From: a virus
Reading direction: 5' to 3' (one strand)
DNA length: 45,378 nucleotides
Virus record (IMG/VR): IMGVR_UViG_3300020214_002601
Span: 1 to 45,378 of that record
In this document: positions 99 to 44,823 of the stretch, piece after piece
How positions within the stretch are numbered: position 1 is the first letter of the stretch
Layout of the letters: each line of letters opens with the position of its first letter
Notes under the pieces: model-generated
The model's input: the letters and a program-made list of their open reading frames with translations, nothing else
Told to the model about the DNA's origin: nothing
Database searches by the model: none
Translations under genes and position numbers: made by a program

Positions 99-1667
99 CT
101 AGATCATCCGCCTGATGAGCTGGCGTAAGCTGGATTCGCTCAAGTCACGTTTCCTCAGCACCTCACGTGCTGTCATCGCAACGCTTCCGTTACTGTCGTT
201 CGCGAGCTCACGCACGATGTTGATGTCTGTGCTCTTGTTGTACGCGACAGAGACACGAACGCTGGAGTCATCATCATTTGCAAGCTGACGAAGTAAGCTG
301 GCGGGAGTTGCGTTGTTCTGAGCGACTCCCAGGCGAATGTAGTAATCGGAATTCTTAGCAAGCTTCTGAAGCGCTTGAACAGGAGTCGATGGATTCTTAC
401 CGACAGCCTTGAGAAGATCCCTGTCGGTACGATTCAGCATTCTGTCCAAGAACGAAACATCTGCAAGTGAGGCAAGAGTTTCAGGTGGAGCACGAGGGTT
501 CATAACGACGTGGTAAACAACCTCCTTATCGTTCGCGAGACGTGCGAGCGTTTCAGGAGGGGTTGCCTCATTTTTTGCGATCCTCTGACGCACTTCAGCG
601 TTCTCATCGCGGGAGAGCTTCTCGATGACATCAACGGGAATGCCCTTGTTCTGGGCGAGCATATGTCTCACCCTCCACTCAGGATCATCAGCAAGGAGCT
701 GGGCTATATCATTCGAGACCCCAGGAACCTTCGCGACCTGCTGCTTCAGGGAGGCAGCCTCCGTCTTCGATATACCCTGCATGATGTAGTTGAAACCCTG
801 GACATCACGGGCAGCATCTCTGATTTTCGCTCGAGCGAGTGACACCCCACTGTGACTCTTCACCCGCTCCCCTAAAGTCTCTATAACACCGTCGAAGTCA
901 GCTCCAAGCATGCGTCTCAGACCGCCCTCGTCCATGGCATTATTCGCGCCATCGACCGTGGGCTGCTCACCCGGGGTACCTTCATACTCCACAGTCCCAT
1001 CATCGTTCATGGCTATCGAGACCCACTTCTTCCGGGAGGGAACATCACCCTGGTGAACGAGAGTAAACAGATTGTACTTGGCTACGTAGTTGTAGAAGAG
1101 ATTCGAGGCGTCCGTTCTCACCGTGCACCATTCGGTGTTAGGCTTTCCAGATTCCTTGTTGAGACCCACGATATTACAGCTGTTCTCGCGGCTGGAAGCC
1201 TCGTAGATCTCCCAAGGACCGACCCGATCGATCTTATCACCCTCAATGCTCTGTGAACGATTAACCTCGATCCTTGGCTTCTTTTGATTCGAAAGCTCAA
1301 CAACCCTAAGCATCTCGATTGCGCTCATCGTGGTCGGGTCTGCGGGGGAGGTCCACGATCTGTCTGGAAACTCCGTTTCAATCAGTTTCCTGAAGTATTC
1401 ATTCGTCATGAACTTCCTACCGATGTCTGCGCTTCGAGGCTCGTATTTGATGATGGCATCCAGCGCCATGGGAAACTTATCCTCTGGCATTGGTCTCGTC
1501 GCTCGAGAGCCGAACCTGGCGGACAACCACGTGATTGCCTTGTTACTTAGCCCGTCAATCTCTTCAGTATATGAGCTGAACTTGTCTCTCAACTCTCGTT
1601 GAGAGTCCTTGACTCCCTCAAGGAGCACAGACTCGATAAGACGACGAAGATAAATTTGAGAAATCAT
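99..1667 (-). CDS. WCT-type domain protein with LRV (HEAT-like) repeats and an N-terminal tag
   Basis: A 522-residue protein in three parts. Residues 1-20 are the amphipathic tag (LRRLIESVLLEG) shared with other proteins here. Residues about 150-260 contain a 'TEWCT' segment followed by a FYNYV/LFTLV stretch and a KKWVSIAMNDDGTVEYE strand. This resembles a domain I know from other phage proteins as a KWCT/WCI-type domain of unknown function. Residues about 325-507 are six to seven repeats of roughly 24-26 residues (pattern A-N/D-D-x-x-x-x-VR-x-x-[VI]-A-x-N-x-x-T-P-x-x-[LV]-L-x-x-L), typical of leucine-rich repeat variants that form a curved alpha solenoid. The C-terminus (LRQLIRRMI) again resembles the tag but lacks the Glu. 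The close SD (AGGGAGC-ATG) matches the gene at 79. No catalytic motif is recognised. A protein-binding scaffold is the most I would infer. Confidence 0.85.
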   Translation of the reverse strand: MISQIYLRRLIESVLLEGVKDSQRELRDKFSSYTEEIDGLSNKAITWLSARFGSRATRPMPEDKFPMALDAIIKYEPRSADIGRKFMTNEYFRKLIETEFPDRSWTSPADPTTMSAIEMLRVVELSNQKKPRIEVNRSQSIEGDKIDRVGPWEIYEASSRENSCNIVGLNKESGKPNTEWCTVRTDASNLFYNYVAKYNLFTLVHQGDVPSRKKWVSIAMNDDGTVEYEGTPGEQPTVDGANNAMDEGGLRRMLGADFDGVIETLGERVKSHSGVSLARAKIRDAARDVQGFNYIMQGISKTEAASLKQQVAKVPGVSNDIAQLLADDPEWRVRHMLAQNKGIPVDVIEKLSRDENAEVRQRIAKNEATPPETLARLANDKEVVYHVVMNPRAPPETLASLADVSFLDRMLNRTDRDLLKAVGKNPSTPVQALQKLAKNSDYYIRLGVAQNNATPASLLRQLANDDDSSVRVSVAYNKSTDINIVRELANDSNGSVAMTAREVLRKRDLSESSLRQLIRRMI

Positions 1668-32144: not shown

Positions 32145-35100
32145 TTAGATGTCCGCGTTATTTCTTGCTTCGAAGGTTATCGAGACGAACTCTGCTGACT
32201 TCGTGGGCTGCAGGAAGATCTTTCCGCGGATGGTGTTGTTCTCGATATCCGCCTGGGTGGTGGTGGTGGTGTCGATCTGCACCCGGTACCTCTCGACGCC
32301 GCGCTGTGACTGGACCTGCTTCATGATCGGGGTGACCAAGGAGTTGAAGCGGGTGATCGTGGCCTCACGGTTGGGCTCGAAGAGGAGGGTGAAAGCGACG
32401 GCCTTCACACGCCGCCGAATCTCGATGAGGAGTCGACGAACGTTGACGCGGTCGAGCGCGGAGCCTTCGGTGAGCGTCGTCCGCTGACCGTTGATGATGA
32501 TGCCGGCCCCCGGGGTCGAAACGAGCGGGTTGATCCCCGCGTCGTACACCGTGTCAACGTTCTCAGCCAGGAATACAGTGCTGAGCTGCTCGGCCGGGAT
32601 GACGGCGCGGACGTAGCCGGCGGGGGCATTCCAGACGTATCCGATCCTATCATTCTGACCGTAGGCACCCAGGACCATCGTTGAGACGGGCAGGCGCATC
32701 GTCTCCGCCACGCCGGTACCCGGATCGACGGAGACAAGGGTATCCGGGAAGTATGCAGCCCCGAATGAGTTGTTGATACCGCGGTTGCGGAAGCGTGTGG
32801 TGGTGTAGCCCACGTTGACGCTTGGGTAGGAGTCGGACGAGATGGAGGCGGTGATGTAGCTGTTGTTGTCATCCTTCAACTCAACGTCCATGATGTAGAG
32901 GGCATCGAACTTCGTCTGCATCGAGCTGAGGGTGTAATCCGTCACCGATGGGTGACGAACATCCGGTATCGCCAGGAGGCTGATGTCAGAGTATGTCTTG
33001 TTCGACATGATGTCGACCGCTCTACGGTAAGCGGCGACGGTCGGACCATCGAGCTCGCCCTGGTTCGAGTTGTCCATCTCACGACGGATCGCAGTGTCCC
33101 TCATGTAGAACTTATCAGCATCGAAGATGTTGAGTCCATCGAAGCCGCCCTGCATGAAGGTGACAAACTTGAGGTAGGCGCGGGTCGCGGCATAGGAGAA
33201 GTCGACATCGACGTTGACGAACCGTCCGTCGGTTCCTGATAGCACCCTACCACGCTGGTAGATCGCCTCATCCCAACGTGTGTTGTCCACGAGACTGTCG
33301 GTTCCGGTCATCACCTGGATGTTCTCCAGCGTGAAGAGGTTCCTGTTGAAGAGATCCGCGTCGATCACGGAGCCGTTCACAGTTGCAGCGCCCGCGTTGT
33401 CACCGACCCAGGGGCTCTGGTATGACGTGTGATACTTCGGGAAATACTTGGTATATGCATCGAGCGCTCCCGCGTCCAGGATGCTTGAAACCACGGTTGT
33501 TCCGTCATTTGGCTGGGTTGTTGAGTTGCAGACGTTGAACTGCGGGCCCCAGTAATACCTGCTCTCGCCCACGGCGCTGGGATCAGCTGCCGCCGCCCCG
33601 ACGTTGATCGAGTGGCGGAAGAAGACCGGCAGCTCACGGGCATTTGTCGTCGGGACGGTCAGGTGCGCGCTGCTGTCGGACGATCCGGTCGCGAGGAATC
33701 CTGAACCTGACGTGATAAGGTGGTAGTAGCCACGTGAGCCGACGGGCATGGTGCTCGTCGGAACGATCTTATTCATCACATCATCGGAGATCTCAACCCT
33801 GATCCGACGCGACACCTTTCCGTAGAGACCCTCCTCGACAACCTTCTGGGCGTCCGCTGAACGATCGAAGTCGTAGTAGGTGTTAAGGTCACCGATCATC
33901 TTTCCGATGAAAGAGGAGCTGTCAGGATCAAGATCGCAGTTGGGATAACTCTCGTGGACAACGGGATCGTCGTCCGTGTCGCTCCAGTCACGTAACTTGA
34001 TCGTAAACTTGGCGTATGCGTCAGCAGTTACAGGATACTTGATGTTCTCGATCGCGATCTTATAGAGCTTGTTGGAGGTCTCACCATCCGAGCGGGCGTG
34101 GAACCTGAAGAGATCATAACGGGTGCCGAAATTCTGCGACACTATGAACGGGGTCATCGGATGCTGAAAGCGCTCCTCGAAGCCATCGTAGTTCGGGAAG
34201 GTGTCAGTTCCGTCGTTCCTTGACTGTGAGCCGGAGAGACAGAAGACGATCTCCTCGATCGCAGAATCGACGCTGGTGCGGCGGATGAGTGCCTCGGCAG
34301 CTACCCCCGAGCCCGTTGGAACTGCGAAGGCAGGAAGGATGTCATAGTGGTTGTAGAGAACGTAGCCGTGCTCCTCGACGAGCAGCGGGTCCGTGTTGAG
34401 CTTCCTCGGTAAGTACGCGTCAGAGGTCGGATCGAATGATGCTGTCAGGATGCTTGGATAAGCGGCGGAATCCGTGTGACCGTTCAGGAGGAGCACGAAC
34501 TGCTGCTTTCCACCTGTGAGATCTATGGAACCCGTGAACCACCCCTTCGCGGGTGCAGCTGTCGTAGCAGTCGATGAGTAGGTGTCAGAGGTCGCCCCAG
34601 GCGCGGAGCTCGATACAGCGATCTGCACACCGGAAGCTGCAAAGAGGACACCGCGGATGATGGGCTGCGCGGCGGTGGAGGTCTGGACCCCTGCATCCGA
34701 GAGGACCCAGGAACCAGCCGATTCGGACATGTAGCAACCGAGGAAGTAGGTACGACCCGCGATACCGGCCGAGGTGGCGTATGGGTTATTGCCGAGCTGT
34801 CCTGTCCCAGTCTGCACCTTCTGCGCGCCGGCCACGAAACCAGCATACGTCACCTTACCTGCGTTGGCTCCGGTGGTGGAGCGCTTCTTACCATCACCCG
34901 AACCAAGAACTCTCACGTACGTACCAGCCGTGGCATTGTCGAGCCACTGATCCAGCGCGAGCGGCGCGTGATACTTGGATGTGGGATACCCAAACTCCGT
35001 GAGGAACTGTGAGCTGTTGGCAAAGGTGATGGGAACAAAGGCTGTTCCCTGTGTGGCGGTCCCGATAACTCCCGCGGAACGTCCTGAGGGCTCGGCCTCC

Positions 35101-35153
35101 GCTGCTCCACCGGTGCTATCAATCTCGCTTACTGTTATTCCTGGCGCACCCAT
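32145..35153 (-). CDS. Tail sheath protein (copy 1, tube-proximal)
   Basis: 1002 residues. The N-terminus GAPGITVSEIDSTGG, the SAGVIGTATQGTAFVPITFANSSQFLTEFG segment and the C-terminal domain (INPLVSTPGAGIIINGQRT, DRVNVRRLLIEIRRRVKAVAFTLLFEPN, GVERYRVQIDTTTTTQADIENNTIRGKIFLQPTKSAEFVSITF) are those of T4-like sheath proteins. It is much longer than T4 gp18 (659 residues), because of large insertions in the middle that would form surface domains. It is clearly paralogous at both ends to the gene just upstream. AAGGAG lies eight bases before the ATG. Confidence 0.92.
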   Translation of the reverse strand: MGAPGITVSEIDSTGGAAEAEPSGRSAGVIGTATQGTAFVPITFANSSQFLTEFGYPTSKYHAPLALDQWLDNATAGTYVRVLGSGDGKKRSTTGANAGKVTYAGFVAGAQKVQTGTGQLGNNPYATSAGIAGRTYFLGCYMSESAGSWVLSDAGVQTSTAAQPIIRGVLFAASGVQIAVSSSAPGATSDTYSSTATTAAPAKGWFTGSIDLTGGKQQFVLLLNGHTDSAAYPSILTASFDPTSDAYLPRKLNTDPLLVEEHGYVLYNHYDILPAFAVPTGSGVAAEALIRRTSVDSAIEEIVFCLSGSQSRNDGTDTFPNYDGFEERFQHPMTPFIVSQNFGTRYDLFRFHARSDGETSNKLYKIAIENIKYPVTADAYAKFTIKLRDWSDTDDDPVVHESYPNCDLDPDSSSFIGKMIGDLNTYYDFDRSADAQKVVEEGLYGKVSRRIRVEISDDVMNKIVPTSTMPVGSRGYYHLITSGSGFLATGSSDSSAHLTVPTTNARELPVFFRHSINVGAAAADPSAVGESRYYWGPQFNVCNSTTQPNDGTTVVSSILDAGALDAYTKYFPKYHTSYQSPWVGDNAGAATVNGSVIDADLFNRNLFTLENIQVMTGTDSLVDNTRWDEAIYQRGRVLSGTDGRFVNVDVDFSYAATRAYLKFVTFMQGGFDGLNIFDADKFYMRDTAIRREMDNSNQGELDGPTVAAYRRAVDIMSNKTYSDISLLAIPDVRHPSVTDYTLSSMQTKFDALYIMDVELKDDNNSYITASISSDSYPSVNVGYTTTRFRNRGINNSFGAAYFPDTLVSVDPGTGVAETMRLPVSTMVLGAYGQNDRIGYVWNAPAGYVRAVIPAEQLSTVFLAENVDTVYDAGINPLVSTPGAGIIINGQRTTLTEGSALDRVNVRRLLIEIRRRVKAVAFTLLFEPNREATITRFNSLVTPIMKQVQSQRGVERYRVQIDTTTTTQADIENNTIRGKIFLQPTKSAEFVSITFEARNNADI

Positions 35154-35191: not shown

Positions 35192-38100
35192 TTAGACGAA
35201 CTCGACGCCCGCGGGTGTGATGATAAAATCAACCGCGATAAATTCGACCGCACGGGTCGGAACCACAACGATTCGACCGTTGAGCCTGCTCGCCTCAGTG
35301 TCAGCCTGCGTGTTGTTCGTCTCATCGCAGACAATCTTAAACTTCTCAACTCCCGCCTGTGCCTTGATGAGGCTAAGGAGCGGGGTTGCACGGTCCACAA
35401 ATGCTTTCCGAGTTGTCACGTCGTTCGGCTCGAAGAGGAGACCGCGGGCAACGCCGATGATGAGCCTCTTCAGCTCAAGGAAGAGGCGACGAACGTTGAC
35501 ACGATCGAAAGCTGATTTGCTGAGCTGCAATGTCTTTTGCCCGAAGATGACGAACCCGCTGCCCGGGAAAGTGGCGATCGGATTCAGCGAGTTCTCATAG
35601 AGGTAATCACGATCCGCGGCGCTAAGCTTCACCTCAACGTTTGACACGAAGTCGAGACTCGCCCGGTTGAATCCAGCGGGAGCGTACCATGGGTAGGAGA
35701 CCCTGTCGCTGTAGGCGAGCGCACCGAGCGCAGCGACCGAGGCGGGCGCCTTCACACGACGGTTGCTCGTTGTATCGTCCACGAAAACATCGGGGAAGTA
35801 GGTCGCCACGTAGTTGTTGTTGACCACCCGCGCGGTGAGCGCGTCGGTAGTCCTCGTAACGTTCGGCTTCGTCCCAGAATCCTCAAAGATGCGAACATTA
35901 GAGTCGGTGTAGGCTGGCACGTCCATGACATACATACCGAGAGCGTAGTCAGAGAGACGTCGACCGATGAAATCGGTGATCAGAGGCTCTTTGATACCGG
36001 GCGCGGCGATGACATTGACATTGACTGTCAGCTTGTCAGTCATAAGCTTCGAGGCGATCCTATAGGAGTTGACCGCGTTGTTGCTCAGGTAGCTTCCACC
36101 TGGATCGTATCCAAGTCCAGTCCTCGCGGTGGCGGTGGCATCACCGCTGGCGAGCCCAAGAGCTTCAGCGGAGGTCGCACGGTCGCCAAGCTTCGAGGCT
36201 GCGTCATCGAGAATGTTGACGCCATCAAACCCGCCGTAGAAGATGTTGGTGAACTTAGCGTACTCATTGAACTTGTTGAACGTGCTGGCCGATCCGGAGA
36301 GCAGCGAGGCGAAGGTGAGCCTGCTGAGCGCGGAGTCTGTGATCCTGTAATCAACAGTGTTGGGAACGCCGTTCCTGATGTACGCAGCCTCCTTCATGTG
36401 CGCCTCGATCGTGCCTGTCACATCGGAAATTGACACATTGGAGAGGGCAACGCGGGCGAGGGTGAACTTGTTCGCGTTGAAGACGTCCGCATCCGAGCCG
36501 GTGATCAGGGCGTCCAGTTTCTGGATTCCCTGAAACTTGGAGTAGCTGAGCACCAGCGGATTGAACTCACTTCCCGCGTTGGAATCCATGACGGAATTCT
36601 CGATCTTACCAGTGGTTGTGCCAGAGGGCACGAGCTTCTCAAACTTGACGCCCCAGTGCAGGCGGGAATCCGGAATCTCCAGAAGTCCCGGGGAGCCGAC
36701 ATACGAAGATCCGTCAACCTCTCCGCGGGTCGCCTTGAAGCGAAAGGGAAGGGGAGGAATGATCGAGCCTGTCAGTCCCGTCTCAACCGAGCTGCTGCAC
36801 AGGAGACGCGGAAGAACGTCCGCCCCTGCGCCATAGGTCCGCCCACCTTCAGTAAGCGCAGCGGAGGTGTCGGTGAGGGTCTGGGTCGTTCGCACGACCG
36901 GAATCCCGCGGAAACCGAATGGTAGGGCAGTCTTGGGAACTGTGCCCGCATCAAGGGCGGTGGAGACCCGCACACGCACGCGCCGGCTGGCATTCGGGAA
37001 CTTACCGCTGATCATGAGCCGCTGCTCGGCTTCGTCCACAGCATCAAAGTTGAAGGTCACCTTGCGATCACCTATCTTCTTGGCAATGTAATTCTTGCTC
37101 GCTGGATTGAGATCGCATCCTGTGAAGGATTCGAGGACGCTCGTTGATATATCGGTATCGAAAAGATCGCGGATGAGAACGTCGAAGGTTCCGTATGGGT
37201 TGCTGGGATCCGTCGAGGCCTTGATGTTTGAGATGGAGACCTTGAAAAGATCATTGCCAGACTCACCGTCCGTCAGCGTCTCGAGGTGGAAGAGGTCATG
37301 CTCAAGGCCGCTGAAGGGCTGGGAGATGAAGGACGTCGTCCGGGCACCGGTGAAACGGGTGTCGAAGCGCCCAAAATTCTGCAGGTAAGAGCTCGATGAA
37401 CCCGAGGCGATCGCGATGCAGTTCTGTCCGCTGGTATCAAGGGGAGCGATCTCCTCCTCGACTGGGAAGTCAAGGTAGAGGACATGCTGCTCAGCCTGGA
37501 ACTTGCGTGGGTCGGTGTTTAGAACCTTTCCAAAGTAGTCGATTGCGTTCGGATCAAGGGACGCAGTGTAGATTCGGATGCCTGAAACCCCATCGGTGGC
37601 ACCGAAAGTGGAGCCCTGCGATGATGAGACGACGAACTTGAACCTCTTGTATGTGGATGACGTCGTGCTCAAGTCCGTTGAGGCAACATCGTCGATTGCC
37701 GATCCGTTACCGGTCCACTGCGATCCAGCTCCGGTCATATCAAGAACCATGCCCCGGGCTCCCGTCGGAAACATCAGGACGCCGCGAACAACGTTCAGGG
37801 TGTCGGCGGAGGGTGGGCTGAAGCTTGGGTTGTCGCTGAAGACCGGAAACCCACGCCACTCGGATGGGGTTGAGGAGTCGGAGGGTAGCACATGCCGCGC
37901 GACGAGGAACTGAACAGCACCTGACTTCCGCGCATCGTCTGGTGGCAACGCTACGGTCGAGCCGGTTACCTTAAAGCCTGCATTCCTCACGCTCCCCGAC
38001 GCGAGGGTGACGGCGGCGTGGGTGGTGCTTGTATTCGCCCCAGCGCCGAGGACGCGGATGAATGTCAGGGCACCCTTGTGCTTCAACCACTCATTTGCAG

Positions 38101-38305
38101 CATACGTCGCCGGACGATTTGGATCCAGTGCCCCAAACCTCGCCGAGTAGTCCGTGAACGAAGCCACGGTGGTCGGCACAAAAGCAGGTCCGGAGGCTGC
38201 CGCACCGATGAGCCCGCCGGGGGTGCCTGTAGGCTGGGCACCCGGGGCTGTAAGCTCAATCTCCTGCTCAAAGAATCCAGGAGAGCGAAAGATCTGTTCC
38301 GACAT
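35192..38305 (-). CDS. Tail sheath protein (copy 2, paralogue)
   Basis: 1037 residues. It has the same N-terminal layout (SPGFFEQEIELTAPG, GLIGAAASGPAFVPTTVASFTDYSARFG, YAANEWLKHKGALTFIRVLGAG) and the same C-terminal domain (LNPIATFPGSGFVIFGQKT, DRVNVRRLFLELKRLIIGVARGLLFEPND, GVEKFKIVCDETNNTQADTEASRLNGRIVVVPTRAVEFIAVDF) as copy 1. The middle domains differ strongly between the copies. Both N- and C-terminal parts needed for sheath assembly are intact, so neither looks like a pseudogene. They may co-assemble or form different parts of the sheath. TTAGGAG lies six bases upstream of the ATG. Confidence 0.92.
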   Translation of the reverse strand: MSEQIFRSPGFFEQEIELTAPGAQPTGTPGGLIGAAASGPAFVPTTVASFTDYSARFGALDPNRPATYAANEWLKHKGALTFIRVLGAGANTSTTHAAVTLASGSVRNAGFKVTGSTVALPPDDARKSGAVQFLVARHVLPSDSSTPSEWRGFPVFSDNPSFSPPSADTLNVVRGVLMFPTGARGMVLDMTGAGSQWTGNGSAIDDVASTDLSTTSSTYKRFKFVVSSSQGSTFGATDGVSGIRIYTASLDPNAIDYFGKVLNTDPRKFQAEQHVLYLDFPVEEEIAPLDTSGQNCIAIASGSSSSYLQNFGRFDTRFTGARTTSFISQPFSGLEHDLFHLETLTDGESGNDLFKVSISNIKASTDPSNPYGTFDVLIRDLFDTDISTSVLESFTGCDLNPASKNYIAKKIGDRKVTFNFDAVDEAEQRLMISGKFPNASRRVRVRVSTALDAGTVPKTALPFGFRGIPVVRTTQTLTDTSAALTEGGRTYGAGADVLPRLLCSSSVETGLTGSIIPPLPFRFKATRGEVDGSSYVGSPGLLEIPDSRLHWGVKFEKLVPSGTTTGKIENSVMDSNAGSEFNPLVLSYSKFQGIQKLDALITGSDADVFNANKFTLARVALSNVSISDVTGTIEAHMKEAAYIRNGVPNTVDYRITDSALSRLTFASLLSGSASTFNKFNEYAKFTNIFYGGFDGVNILDDAASKLGDRATSAEALGLASGDATATARTGLGYDPGGSYLSNNAVNSYRIASKLMTDKLTVNVNVIAAPGIKEPLITDFIGRRLSDYALGMYVMDVPAYTDSNVRIFEDSGTKPNVTRTTDALTARVVNNNYVATYFPDVFVDDTTSNRRVKAPASVAALGALAYSDRVSYPWYAPAGFNRASLDFVSNVEVKLSAADRDYLYENSLNPIATFPGSGFVIFGQKTLQLSKSAFDRVNVRRLFLELKRLIIGVARGLLFEPNDVTTRKAFVDRATPLLSLIKAQAGVEKFKIVCDETNNTQADTEASRLNGRIVVVPTRAVEFIAVDFIITPAGVEFV

Positions 38306-40288: not shown

Positions 40289-41461
40289 TCACCCGATCGT
40301 GATCACGCGGCCCATCGGGACCGGGATCGCCTTGAGAATCTTCTGCTGGTTCTCGATCTCCGCAGCCTTTGTCTCGATGAGCTTGTTGTAGGTCATCGAG
40401 TCCAGCATCTCCTTCAGGTCAGTCCGGAGCTTTTCCTTCTCCTCCTTCGCAGAGCTCTTCAGATCACCCCCATCGAGCGTCAACTCGCCGCCTGGGATCG
40501 GGACCGTTCCGAATTTCGATCTGATCATACCGAGCAGCTCCTTGCAGAGGGCGAGAGTGTACTGTCGAACCCACTGTCGGGCGAGAGAGTTCACACGAGT
40601 ATACACGAAGTTTCCATACGGAACGTTGGAGAGGTTGGAGACCCCCGTTATGGAGTTGTCGGTGAAAGCTGGGCTCAGGGGATTCGATTCAAACCCAACG
40701 CGGATCCAGAGCTTCAGGGGATCCACGGCGGTAGGCATCGGGTAGATACGGAGCTTCGTACCGGTAACCCTGTAGCTGTAATTCGAGCGACGAACCCGAT
40801 TCGAGATGTTCATCTGCCCACCGCGGAGGATGTCCTCGAACACCGGCAGGACGTAGAACACCGTCTCCGGGGTGAACGATTCGAAGCTGAACTCGTTGTT
40901 GAGGTAGTTGATCGCGGATGTGGTATCGAAGAAACGATACGCGGCGGATGGATTGAAGTGCATGATCTCGAAGACGCGCATCTTACGATACTCAGGGTTC
41001 AGTGATGAGCTCACGACCGGCGTGCTTGTCGCAGGATCGAGCAGCTCCGTGTAGAGATCGTAATCCTGCACATTCTGCCGCAGCTGTATCGACCCTGAGA
41101 TCGAGTTGTAGCTGCCGCCGAGACCTGCCTCGACCGCGTAGGGCTCAGCGAGCCGGATAATGTAGTTGAGGGTATCGCGTGGCAGCGCCTGGGTTGCCTC
41201 GTCAAGGCTTCCGGTCTGCATTCCAAGCAACGAGAGCAGCTGACTTTTCGCCTGATACTGATTCACGATGGAACCGTACTCAAGGAACGACTCCTCGAAG
41301 CAAGCCCAGACCTGCTTCTTTGTCAGCTCGACAGACAGAATATCATCTCCCAACCGCCGCTTGACGAACGTCACCATCGCGTCAGCCTCGGTCTGGAAGC
41401 TTGAGTCGGAGTCAAAGAATCCGAATGGAGTTGGATTTAACGTGCTCGCGAAAGTTGACAC
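40289..41461 (-). CDS. Neck protein, gp13-like
   Basis: 390 residues. Typical features are the N-terminal PFGFFDSDSSFQTEADAMVTFVKRRLG, SVELTKKQVWACFEESFLEYGSIVNQYQAKSQL, FEIMHFNPSAAYRFFDTTSAINYLNNEF, LPVFEDILRGGQMNISNRVRRSNYSYRVTG and the helical RQWVRQYTLALCKELLGMIRSKFG. These are the conserved blocks I know from T4-like cyanophage gp13. It joins the portal ring to the tail terminator. A final charged coiled coil (LKEMLDSMTYNKLIETKAAEIENQQKILKA) precedes the end. It is the first neck gene in transcription order. Confidence 0.87.
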   Translation of the reverse strand: MSTFASTLNPTPFGFFDSDSSFQTEADAMVTFVKRRLGDDILSVELTKKQVWACFEESFLEYGSIVNQYQAKSQLLSLLGMQTGSLDEATQALPRDTLNYIIRLAEPYAVEAGLGGSYNSISGSIQLRQNVQDYDLYTELLDPATSTPVVSSSLNPEYRKMRVFEIMHFNPSAAYRFFDTTSAINYLNNEFSFESFTPETVFYVLPVFEDILRGGQMNISNRVRRSNYSYRVTGTKLRIYPMPTAVDPLKLWIRVGFESNPLSPAFTDNSITGVSNLSNVPYGNFVYTRVNSLARQWVRQYTLALCKELLGMIRSKFGTVPIPGGELTLDGGDLKSSAKEEKEKLRTDLKEMLDSMTYNKLIETKAAEIENQQKILKAIPVPMGRVITIG

Positions 41462-41489: not shown

Positions 41490-43289
41490 TCAAAGATCGT
41501 AGCGTATCGATTCAAATAATACCTTGAGCAAGCTCCGTTGCCTTGAGTCCTGGATGTCACCGTACGTCCCCTTCAGGATGCTCCAGTACCTGTCCTTCAT
41601 CTCCTGGTTCAGGGTCTGCGGCACGTAGCGATCGAACGAGGCGCGATCATCGGCTGCGAGGAACTGCCGCATCCGAGTTCCTGAGATCTGTATCGTCTCG
41701 GAACGTGGGACTGGCATCTGCTGGAACTTCGAGGCCGCGACAGGATCACGCATCATGTCCGTGAGTTTCTGCTTCGAGTACTTACCTCGGGCGTCCTCAT
41801 CATCCGAGTAGAACACAAACTTACTGACGACGTCCTTCATCTGGCGCATCTTATCGATCGCGAGTTGTAGAGGTGACTCAGAGGTTATGATGAGGGTCGC
41901 ATTCGGATAGTCACGATGGAACTGCGGCTCAAGCACCGCCTTCCACGCATCGATCATGATACCCGGTGGGAGCTCGTCACGCCCCGCGGTTGATGTGATG
42001 ATGAGCGCCTCATCGCATTCCTTCGCAGCCCTTCCGATCATCTGCCAGTGCCCCTCGTGCACTGGTTTTCCAGCCACCACGAAGATGCCGATGCTGATCC
42101 CGTTCTGGGTCCCGATCTCGAGACGCTTCATCACGTTCGTCTTCGTGGTCAGGAAGAGATCCTCCTGCCGCTGGATGAGCGATTTCGGATGAGTCAGGAG
42201 ACCAAGACGATTCGCTATCGCCGAATCGAAATAGCACTCCTGGTGGACGTCCTCAAGGACCTGATCAAGCTCGGATTCCGGTATGTTTCGTCGTTGGGCA
42301 GGAGCATGCTCGGCAGCGATCTCCCTCGCGATCGCCACGATCCCGTTCCAGTACTCCTGCTCTTCCTCTTTCGTTCCTGCACGAAACTTCTGCTTGATCG
42401 CCTGCCTATGCTCTGCATCGTGCTGATCGAAACGAAGGGCCTTGTAGAGCGCCTGCGTCGCCGATGACGAGAAAACAGAGCCCTCAGCAGCCGGGTACTC
42501 ACCCTCTGCGGAGATATCGGCATCGGTGGACAGGGTCGTCTGGAAATCCGAGAATATGCTGTAGATCGCGTCCACGATTTTGAGCGGTCGATCCTCCGTC
42601 TTATCATCGTAGGCTGCCCTTAGATTATCGAACACACTCGCGTATCGATTCTGGATCATCCGGCTGCGGATACCGTCACGCAGACCCCCCATGGTGGCGA
42701 AGCTTCCCTCGAACAGGATGGGATACATGTTGATCCCGAGTGCCCTTGCGTATTCCTCGAGCCGCGGCTGACCATCCTCGGGTGTTATGTTGGTGGCGAG
42801 ATAGGTTCCCGTTGCCTTGTATCTCGACGTTCCGTAGAGCGTTAGAAAGATGCCATGCTTCTGTGGGTATTCGCGGCTGATGGTCGGCTTTCGCTGCACG
42901 AACTCCAGGAAGAACTCGGTCCCGGGTGGGATTTCCCGGGTGCCCGGGTGAACGCGGGCGAGGTGGCTGTGAATGAGGGAGTACTGCGCGGTTCCTGAGG
43001 ATGACGTGCGGACATCTTCCTCACGTGCAGCTAGTCCGCGGGCTTCTCCTGGATAGATGATGTTACCCTTGTAGGCGATGTACCAGTTCTTGGTGTAGTC
43101 GTTGGGATCGAACGCGTTGTTCCGACGGAGCAGCGTGAGCTTCGTCCCATCGATCTTCTCGACGATCTTTATATTGGGATCATCCAGGAATTTCTGCGCT
43201 TTCTTCCTGTCGTTCGCGCGCTGCTTCGGGGAAGCATCGCTCCTGACCATCGCAAGCCTCAGATCCTCGATCGAAATGTTGGTGGACAC
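41490..43289 (-). CDS. Fusion: polynucleotide-ligase-type nucleotidyltransferase + NMNAT/cytidylyltransferase-type domain, tagged C-terminus
   Basis: 599 residues from a GTG at 43289. Residues about 1-290 form a ligase-type domain: motif I VEKIDGTKL with Lys45 as the expected adenylation site, a TEFFLEFVQRKPT segment (motif III-like) and AAEGSVF...LYKALRF (motifs IV-V, Glu269 and Lys283). Residues 401-545 form a nucleotidylyltransferase fold: GIFVVAGKPVHEGHW (HxGH at 411-414) and ISGTRMR (535-541), as in NMN adenylyltransferases. The C-terminus SLLKVLFESIRYDL resembles the shared tag. Ligase domains use ATP or NAD, and NMNAT-type domains make or exchange NAD, so the pairing suggests nucleic-acid sealing linked to NAD metabolism. 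The exact substrate is unknown. It begins directly after the nucleotidyltransferase stop. Confidence 0.82.
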   Translation of the reverse strand: MSTNISIEDLRLAMVRSDASPKQRANDRKKAQKFLDDPNIKIVEKIDGTKLTLLRRNNAFDPNDYTKNWYIAYKGNIIYPGEARGLAAREEDVRTSSSGTAQYSLIHSHLARVHPGTREIPPGTEFFLEFVQRKPTISREYPQKHGIFLTLYGTSRYKATGTYLATNITPEDGQPRLEEYARALGINMYPILFEGSFATMGGLRDGIRSRMIQNRYASVFDNLRAAYDDKTEDRPLKIVDAIYSIFSDFQTTLSTDADISAEGEYPAAEGSVFSSSATQALYKALRFDQHDAEHRQAIKQKFRAGTKEEEQEYWNGIVAIAREIAAEHAPAQRRNIPESELDQVLEDVHQECYFDSAIANRLGLLTHPKSLIQRQEDLFLTTKTNVMKRLEIGTQNGISIGIFVVAGKPVHEGHWQMIGRAAKECDEALIITSTAGRDELPPGIMIDAWKAVLEPQFHRDYPNATLIITSESPLQLAIDKMRQMKDVVSKFVFYSDDEDARGKYSKQKLTDMMRDPVAASKFQQMPVPRSETIQISGTRMRQFLAADDRASFDRYVPQTLNQEMKDRYWSILKGTYGDIQDSRQRSLLKVLFESIRYDL

Positions 43290-43290
43290 C

Positions 43291-44823
43291 TCAGCTATCC
43301 CACAGCACAGCTTCGATAAGCCGATTGATTCGCCTCACCCTCGACTCATCCGTGCGGGGTTGATCGTCATCCTCGACGAAACCCTCCTGCCCACGAACCT
43401 TGTACTTCGCGTAGAAGTCCTTCTTCATCCCATCGAGATCGATGGTGGAGGAGCTGGTCTCAGGTATCAGCTGTCGGAACGTCTCAAGCACCTTATCCTT
43501 CACTGCGAGATCCTCCTTGGGATCTGTCGCTGAGAGCCGCTGCGCACGGGCTCCAAAGAAGCGATCAACCATCTCCTCGTAGGTCTTGACGATCTCCTGC
43601 GGCGACATACGCTCCTTCATCAGCCCAAGCACGCCGAGGAAGGATCCGAAGCTCTCCATGTCCTCCTTCGTGGGTGGTGGATTCGCACCGAGGAGACCCT
43701 CGAATATCGCCCTCACATCCCGGGTTACACCCGATCGTTCAGCCCGGGTGAGGTACCTGTAGACCTCATCACCGTTGTATTTCCAATCGAGACGCTTGTA
43801 ACGTTCGCTGTAGCCGGTAACAAGATCGATGGACTTAAGTGGCCTGAGCGGGGCTGGAATCTTTCTCGTTGTCAGGCGCCTGACGTGGGCCTCCGCCTCC
43901 TTTCGGATATTCTCCCGTGATTTTCTGGCGGTGGCGGTTGCGAGTATCTCACGCTCACGCTGCTGCACCATCCTCTCGATCTCCTCCGGTGGAGGTGGAA
44001 CGTAGCTCGGATCGGTTGTCATCCTCACGGATGGTTCCTCGGCGGTGGCGGAGGGGGTCGCCTCACGTGCGTTTATCGGGGGCGGTGACCTGACCGCCGC
44101 GAGGGACACCAGCAGGATCTTGTGAGCGAGACCCTTCACGCCGGCGATGACGTCACGCCAGGCCGAGGAGTAGGAGAATTTCGCCCACTCGGATGGACGA
44201 CCCGCTTCGTACTCGGAACCCTCGAAATCGATCTGGAAGAACGTGTCGCCCTCACCCTCAGGCGCGTCCGGGTCCCAGGTGTAAGCGAAAAGGGCGTTGA
44301 TCTGGAGCGAACCAGGACTCCTCTTGTTGTGACCGACGTACGCGATCTTCGGGGTGAGCTGCTGATCCTCACGCCGGTTGAGGGTCGCGAAGAGCCCGTC
44401 CATCCTCTCGGCTGGTACCGTCAGGTCGATGTCACCCACCGTCGGCTTGTACCTGATGAACTCCTCATCGGAGAGGGTCTCGGGCGGCGCGAAGAGGTGG
44501 GACGAGGAGCCGTTGAAGGCGAAGCCTGACCCAAAGATATCGTCACGCTGGGCCCGATCCCAGAGCGTCTCACCGTGGTCCTGCCTGAACGCGTCATCGA
44601 GCACCCGCAGCATCTCGATCACATCACGGCGGAGATCCTGCCGCTGGATCCGTCCAGCCCGAAGATCGATCTTCTCAGCGTAGGCCTCACGACCGCGAAA
44701 GGTCCTGACGCGCTCGCCGCCCTGCACGAGGCCCGTCGCCGGATCGCGGATGAGCGCGCGGGTATTGCCGCCCTCCTGCAGCTGAGGGTTCGGTCCGAAC
44801 ATGAACCTGGCGATGCTGAACAA
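43291..44823 (-). CDS. Pol-beta-superfamily nucleotidyltransferase-like protein with C-terminal tag
   Basis: 510 residues from a TTG at 44823, with GAGGGGAG six bases upstream. The central NGSSSHLF...KPTVGDIDLTVP (Gly105-Ser, Asp131, Asp133) fits the Gly-Ser ... D-x-D signature of the Pol-beta-type nucleotidyltransferases, although the spacing is longer than usual. Asp199 in FFQIDFEGSEYEAG may be the third carboxylate. An HNKRSPGSLQINALF segment and a PSEWAKFSYSSAWRDVIAGVKGLAHKILL helix follow. The second half is charged and helical. The C-terminus RVRRINRLIEAVLWDS carries the tag. The gene is directly coupled to the ligase-NMNAT fusion. Adding nucleotides to RNA or a protein is possible; the substrate is unknown. 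Confidence 0.75.
   Translation of the reverse strand: MFSIARFMFGPNPQLQEGGNTRALIRDPATGLVQGGERVRTFRGREAYAEKIDLRAGRIQRQDLRRDVIEMLRVLDDAFRQDHGETLWDRAQRDDIFGSGFAFNGSSSHLFAPPETLSDEEFIRYKPTVGDIDLTVPAERMDGLFATLNRREDQQLTPKIAYVGHNKRSPGSLQINALFAYTWDPDAPEGEGDTFFQIDFEGSEYEAGRPSEWAKFSYSSAWRDVIAGVKGLAHKILLVSLAAVRSPPPINAREATPSATAEEPSVRMTTDPSYVPPPPEEIERMVQQREREILATATARKSRENIRKEAEAHVRRLTTRKIPAPLRPLKSIDLVTGYSERYKRLDWKYNGDEVYRYLTRAERSGVTRDVRAIFEGLLGANPPPTKEDMESFGSFLGVLGLMKERMSPQEIVKTYEEMVDRFFGARAQRLSATDPKEDLAVKDKVLETFRQLIPETSSSTIDLDGMKKDFYAKYKVRGQEGFVEDDDQPRTDESRVRRINRLIEAVLWDS

Follow-up and report, generated by a model that had tools for sequence, protein, structure and literature searches.

RNA repair in phages is usually described (T4 Pnkp/Rnl1, RlaP pairs) as the work of enzymes that are made once infection has begun. 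RlaP is an RNA-ligase-associated Pol-beta nucleotidyltransferase that accompanies a phage RNA ligase and is predicted to restore nucleotides prior to sealing (PMC7824862). In T4, the gp21 protease cuts after L/I-X-E, a short propeptide at a protein terminus serves as the capsid-targeting sequence, and Alt bears one at each end (PMC9026906). Here we analyze IMG/VR record IMGVR_UViG_3300020214_002601, a fragment from a T4-superfamily phage that was studied over its whole length of 45,378 bases (the window), with a focus on two adjacent genes: One encodes a nucleotidyltransferase (NT), the other a single polypeptide composed of an RNA-ligase-type domain and an HxGH adenylyltransferase-like domain (ligase-HxGH). 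Both proteins carry candidate T4-like head-loading signals and both genes are linked to head genes; for this reason, the two enzymes probably enter the cell together with the DNA and mend cut RNA at the start of infection. We favor this reading, a head-packaged and injected RNA end-repair pair, at about even chances. The relevant features are as follows; a slash marks a predicted cleavage site here and below.

43291-44823, minus strand: NT gene (510 aa, TTG start), divergent Pol-beta-type nucleotidyltransferase related to phrog_19290 (PHROG match 4.5e-28; invariant motif residues; AlphaFold model with a mean predicted local distance difference test (pLDDT) of 88)
44773-44823, minus strand: NT leader, residues 1-17, MFSIARFMFGPNPQLQE, a predicted head-targeting propeptide that would be cut off between E17 and GGN
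43294-43353, minus strand: NT C-terminal tail and helix, residues 491-510, DESRVRRINRLIEAVLWDS, possible second propeptide ([IV]DE/S and LIE sites kept in the close clade)
41490-43289, minus strand: ligase-HxGH fusion gene (599 aa, GTG start; PHROG_27149, 2.7e-19; AlphaFold mean pLDDT 88)
42390-43178, minus strand: Rnl2-type nucleotidyltransferase (RNA ligase) domain by prediction, residues 38-300, K45 as nucleophile (Foldseek match to T4 RNA ligase 2, E 2.5e-5)
41565-42104, minus strand: HxGH (HIGH) adenylyltransferase-like domain, residues 396-575, with HEGH 411-414 and ISGTRMR (Foldseek matches CoaD/NadD/NadM)
41493-41558, minus strand: ligase C-terminal amphipathic tail, SLLKVLFESIRYDL, with an LxE motif ([LV]xE in 15/15 close relatives)
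40289-41461, minus strand: neck or head-tail adaptor, context gene (PHROG head-tail adaptor Ad2, E 8e-13)

The nucleotidyltransferase-ligase pair

The two open reading frames are separated by a single base, with ligase-HxGH downstream. A preliminary description of the window had proposed two coupled genes next to neck genes, a Pol-beta-type protein with D131/D133, and a ligase KxDG motif (Lys45) joined to HxGH/ISGTxxR in one polypeptide; all of this is borne out. NT has the GS...DxD...D active site of the Pol-beta nucleotidyltransferase superfamily, consisting of GS105-106, D131/D133 in GDID and, newly added, a third acidic residue, D199 in QIDFE, and there is no variation at G105, S106, D131, D133 and D199 across 29 aligned relatives. 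A second scan with this 29-member alignment yielded 209 relatives in IMG/VR. In the AlphaFold model, which was built from IMG/VR relatives, residues 1-19 are of low confidence, the ordered part begins after GGN, and a helix (493-509) is preceded by a low-confidence linker. No significant match was obtained when this model was compared with the PDB by Foldseek, the best being a RelP-type alarmone synthetase and TdT (Pol-beta-like, E about 0.2); the three significant matches among viral models are all unnamed or uncharacterized. Likewise, no family was convincingly matched in a Pfam scan of the 29 members, and the NT profile gave zero matches against PDB sequences. An assignment as RlaP was rejected: None of the 29 members matches PF10127, and the hhalign probability is 0.2% against a thin reference set of four phage RlaP sequences. 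On the strength of its motifs, we classify NT as a divergent Pol-beta-type family that is so far represented only by phrog_19290, which is without assigned function. Structure prediction, proposed earlier as a check, thus recovered an Rnl2 fold and an HxGH fold in the partner protein, as outlined below, and no significant fold match for NT.

The ligase domain has K45 within KIDG as well as motifs III, IV and V, and K45, D47, G48, E129, E269, G270 and K283 are invariant across 27 relatives. The model of ligase-HxGH, also based on IMG/VR relatives (33 were found), places T4 RNA ligase 2 on top in a Foldseek search of the PDB, with Rnl2-fold matches 2hvr, 2hvq and 1s68 at E 2.5e-5 to 1.7e-4; the structural matches listed are RNA ligase 2 and archaeal RNA ligases and include no DNA ligases. 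The close relative G004 reaches 27.5 bits with Pfam RNA_ligase (PF09414; gathering cut-off 27 bits), other relatives match RNA_ligase models under the cut-off, and the ligase of the window itself gives no match to PF09414. Among the Pfam matches of the ligase there is no NAD-ligase family, and the NMN-binding Ia domain of ligases that depend on nicotinamide adenine dinucleotide (NAD) is not evident, K45 being preceded by 44 residues that form two helices. Because no Ia domain is evident and the listed structural relatives are of the ATP type, NAD is an unlikely cofactor of the ligase. From the model, we assign the domain to the Rnl2-like, ATP-dependent RNA ligase type, with RNA sealing as its predicted activity.

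NT and ligase lie side by side in 18/18 close relatives (61-77%), between capsid and neck genes, which answers the question of whether the gene pair is conserved in related phages; contigs that extend far enough show, in succession, genes for the portal, the prohead protease and the major capsid protein, then NT, ligase and neck. Two other lineages have the module in a portal-linked position. The proteins are also fused, either in the order ligase-HxGH-NT (L056-L061) or as NT-ligase, in which HxGH may be present or absent (L062 and roughly ten others, among them L140, L142 and, in part, L155-L177). In Xanthomonas phage X1, separate genes within about 4 kb encode NT, an HxGH protein and a protein that resembles the ligase (KLDG, EGVV). 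Every public phage record that contains the ligase contains NT as well (21/21, with the two contigs of IBB_35 counted as one phage), including all Vibrio and Campylobacter phage matches. Out of the 209 NT relatives, 80 loci were fetched, and in most of these the ligase is fused or nearby; the remainder are contig ends, CP220-type phages, whose genomes encode the ligase at another place, and a small number of unexplained loci, for example L117, L136 and L144. In L055, NT is followed by a second ligase type that lacks the HxGH domain, and therefore NT and ligase constitute the core. The cores of ligase, HxGH domain and NT are under purifying selection (nonsynonymous difference, pN, about 0.10-0.27; synonymous difference, pS, mostly near saturation), and catalytic residues are invariant even where overall identity drops to 23-30%. 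Since the genes are adjacent in close relatives, fused in several lineages and found together in phages of Vibrio, Campylobacter and Xanthomonas, the NT-ligase pair is a real module.

Two observations on neighboring genes may be added. The 183-kb record G003, which may be incomplete, has a ligase-HxGH gene, no detectable NT and a true RlaP (L083:1495-2502) that possibly replaces NT. Calcineurin-like phosphoesterase genes are common in phages; four lineages have related ones next to the module or in its vicinity (L025:11680-12237, L026:11586-12173, L048:11301-11870, L035:7149-7709), and we count this as extra support for a link to RNA.

A Pol-beta enzyme plus a ligase would also fit the logic of base-excision repair, so that the two proteins might travel in the virion to fill gaps and seal nicks of the incoming DNA. 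The packaging evidence described below would be identical in that case, and TdT is among the (non-significant) structural matches of NT. However, the ligase resembles RNA ligase 2, archaeal RNA ligases and Pfam RNA_ligase rather than DNA ligases, and NT is not recognizable as a DNA polymerase, which makes virion-borne DNA repair unlikely.

Candidate head-packaging signals

The NT core starts at a nearly invariant Gly-Gly-Asn. Among 71 distinct sequences, which are related and not independent, 69 have either Glu (44) or the start Met (25) directly before GGN, and the other 2 have a different residue there. In the 44 Glu cases, P3 is L (23), I (14), V (5), M (1) or F (1) and P2 is free; the leader residues vary, yet the Glu and the P3 residue stay. 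Both versions would fit processing, as removal of Met leaves the same N-terminus as cleavage of the leader would. This pattern, [LIV]xE/GGN, supports a T4 prohead-protease signature and a predicted processed leader. At the other end of NT, [IV]DE/S and LIE sites are conserved in the close clade. A 171-kb relative encodes a gp21-type head maturation protease (E 3e-51); the window stops short of the corresponding region. In L050 (8714-11254), NT is fused behind an unknown domain of about 440 aa with STINE/GGN at the junction, as if the protease separated the fused domain from NT.

The ligases of other lineages (L133, L134, L141, L152, L035) have T4-like leaders, for example MKTFKQYITE/AKAMLDISI in L133; further leaders read MNFETYLSE/S, MDFLRYLNE/G and MNFVQYINE/G. 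For comparison, T4 IPI begins with MKTFKEF and contains ITE/A. The ligase of the window clade has no such leader; it ends in a C-terminal helix with an LxE-type motif in 15/15 relatives.

According to the preliminary description, both proteins end with a common terminal tag. Such a tag is real in the 171-kb relative (consensus I[ST]ExxLRxIIREE), where it is mostly N-terminal and starts about a dozen proteins; genes that flank NT-ligase in the clade start with similar sequences. The N-terminal tag resembles a head-targeting signal peculiar to the lineage. In two tests with position-specific scores there was a moderate match for the NT C-terminus (p 0.0035-0.014, the lower value with an alignment picked after the data had been seen) and no significant match for the ligase C-terminus (p 0.09-0.13). 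The claim thus has weak support for NT and no statistical backing for the ligase (p 0.09), and we do not claim a shared C-terminal tag. Tagged proteins (consensus M-[KR]-I-[ST]-E-x-x-L-R-x-I-[IV]-R-x-E) are mostly without known domains, and several are encoded between capsid and neck genes; examples are L074:18874-19341, L074:16116-16883 and L066:5590-6891 in G001 (L066-L074) as well as L010:679-1893, L011:3791-4858 and L046:13300-14529. In L009 (9998-12958), the stop codon of the ligase is absent and the frame continues into the next, tagged protein (987 aa), which joins two probable cargo proteins. In the window, an LRV/HEAT-repeat protein (99-1667, minus strand) is tag-like at both ends (MISQIYLRRLIESVLLEG and SLRQLIRRMI). 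Elsewhere in the window, two tandem large open reading frames (32145-35153 and 35192-38305, minus strand; 1002 and 1037 aa) are alike in C-terminal sequence and are perhaps duplicated tail sheath genes.

Packaging signals and head synteny would equally suit effectors such as T4 Alt: NT, in an AMPylation-like manner, and the HxGH domain could act on host proteins or signaling nucleotides, with the ligase as a co-opted nucleotidyltransferase. Alarmone synthetases are the best, albeit non-significant, structural matches of NT, and Pol-beta nucleotidyltransferases are predicted protein modifiers within injected polyvalent proteins according to the available part of a survey that, in the same part, does not show the NT/ligase/HxGH trio (PMC5512222). 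Injected modifiers are nevertheless quite unlikely, as protein modification would hardly explain why NT recurs together with an RNA-ligase-type enzyme that has kept every one of its motifs.

The HxGH domain and NAD

The second domain of the fusion protein contains HEGH (H411 and H414) and ISGTRMR. Its Foldseek matches are CoaD (PPAT), NadD, archaeal NMNAT and NadM at E 5e-5 to 6e-4, and its profile finds PDB sequences at E 3e-4. CoaD scores are equal to or better than those of NMNAT-type enzymes, and NMNAT-specific models remain far under their cut-offs (TIGR01526, 15.8 of 341 bits; NF002243, 14 of 127). The model therefore identifies an HxGH adenylyltransferase fold to which no subgroup is assignable and which resembles CoaD at least as much as NMNAT. 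Close homologs were checked for Lys45 and HxGH, and all that were aligned retain both; the HxGH and ISxTxxR motifs are present in the window protein and its close clade. Across 27 relatives, only H414 and D496 of the domain are invariant and H411 varies: In Vibrio/Campylobacter-type lineages the first His has been substituted or deleted and ISxTxxR no longer has its Arg either, and in other lineages that keep NT and ligase (e.g., L055-like) the domain is missing or undetected. It is, in sum, a frequent accessory to the NT-ligase core.

The preliminary description had also considered an NAD-linked module. The HxGH domain would then make NAD, either restoring a depleted pool, feeding an NAD-using ligase or serving the NAD-capping of RNA; HEGH and ISGTRMR are present, NadD and NadM are among the structural matches, and phages do rebuild NAD (PMC9503650). 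We consider this improbable, given that CoaD scores as well or better, that the NMNAT models lie far under cut-off, that the first His or the entire domain is gone in lineages with NT and ligase, and that no NAD-ligase Ia domain is evident ahead of K45. For these reasons, a single protein that both supplies and uses NAD was rejected as the leading explanation. The available part of the survey of viral NAD-linked systems contains no NMNAT-ligase fusion (PMC9503650). Least probable is a structural or scaffold role, with enzyme folds recruited as head or neck components irrespective of catalysis: The genes do sit between capsid and neck genes, but the active sites are invariant at 23-30% identity and the genes relocate or fuse in other lineages.

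Proposed role and known systems

The notion of a virion-borne repair module gains support, as a prediction, from the processing-site pattern, the capsid-targeting leaders, the head-gene synteny and the Rnl2-like ligase. For the injected RNA end-repair pair we envisage the following course. NT and ligase would be made late, along with head and neck genes, as suggested by the observed gene order. They would enter the prohead by means of short terminal propeptides and be trimmed by a gp21-type protease after [LI]xE, upon which the NT N-terminus would become Gly-Gly-Asn, and they would be ejected with the DNA in the manner of T4 Alt and the internal proteins. Folds and active sites suggest that, after entry into the new cell, the Rnl2-type ligase would take AMP from ATP onto K45 and seal RNA breaks, and that NT may restore or modify 3' nucleotides ahead of sealing; the most likely targets would be tRNAs or other RNAs that antiphage ribonucleases of the host have cut. 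The HxGH domain, altered or missing in several lineages, might serve as an accessory nucleotide-binding or adenylyltransferase unit. A search across the window found no tRNA gene.

Several points weigh against this proposal. Packaging and an RNA substrate are inferred indirectly. The chemistry of NT can be assigned only tentatively, because its best structural match in the PDB reaches only E 0.2, and the C-terminal tails in the window clade are not convincingly one shared tag. The CP220 gel legend, in the part of the source available, does not list NT and ligase among the main bands (PMC2853527). The Vibrio carrier Pv27 encodes other RNA ligases too (PMC12063606), so that a repair role would be partly redundant. 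In the available parts of the main texts on CP220, CP21, IBB_35 proteomics, pv27 and X1, the NT and ligase proteins are not named. More tentatively, and as a possibility we hold to be clearly less likely than the repair pair as such, a complex of the new Pol-beta nucleotidyltransferase family, the Rnl2-type ligase and the HxGH domain could be preloaded into the head and injected, and could mend defense-cut RNA or adenylylate its ends in an undescribed way before expression of phage genes begins.

If the end-repair proposal is true, a virion-carried repair pair acts from the first moment, and RNA repair joins the short list of injected head cargo. Beyond this, the NT family, with its more than 200 IMG/VR relatives, has no assigned function, and the [LIV]xE/GGN rule provides a simple, testable way to spot head cargo by sequence alone. 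The searchable literature, with subscription papers outside its scope, yielded no paper describing the NT-ligase module.

By sequence, phrog_27149 and phrog_19290 are the same two families; they include Campylobacter phage CP220 proteins and have no function assigned. With NadM/NadR/NadD and CoaD the window protein shares the fold and the HxGH and ISxTxxR motifs; in contrast to these enzymes, its catalytic motif decays in sister lineages and it belongs to no assignable subgroup. The window ligase agrees with T4 Rnl2 in its fold, in the active-site lysine motif and in motifs III-V; it differs in being joined to an HxGH domain and a tail and in its predicted packaging into the virion. T4 internal proteins and Alt likewise have terminal propeptides ending in [LI]xE, at both ends in Alt, and linkage to head genes; here, however, the cargo would consist of nucleotidyl-transfer and ligase enzymes instead of an ADP-ribosyltransferase or small internal proteins, and no homology of the mature parts was seen. 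Closest in its logic is the RlaP-RNA ligase system, in which a Pol-beta nucleotidyltransferase is likewise paired with an ATP-grasp RNA ligase in phages. NT itself is not detectably RlaP, however, and its pair carries head-targeting signals, is fused or adjacent, and usually includes an HxGH domain. What is known is thus the pairing of an RNA ligase with a Pol-beta nucleotidyltransferase; what is new is the nucleotidyltransferase family, the added HxGH domain and the head-cargo signals.

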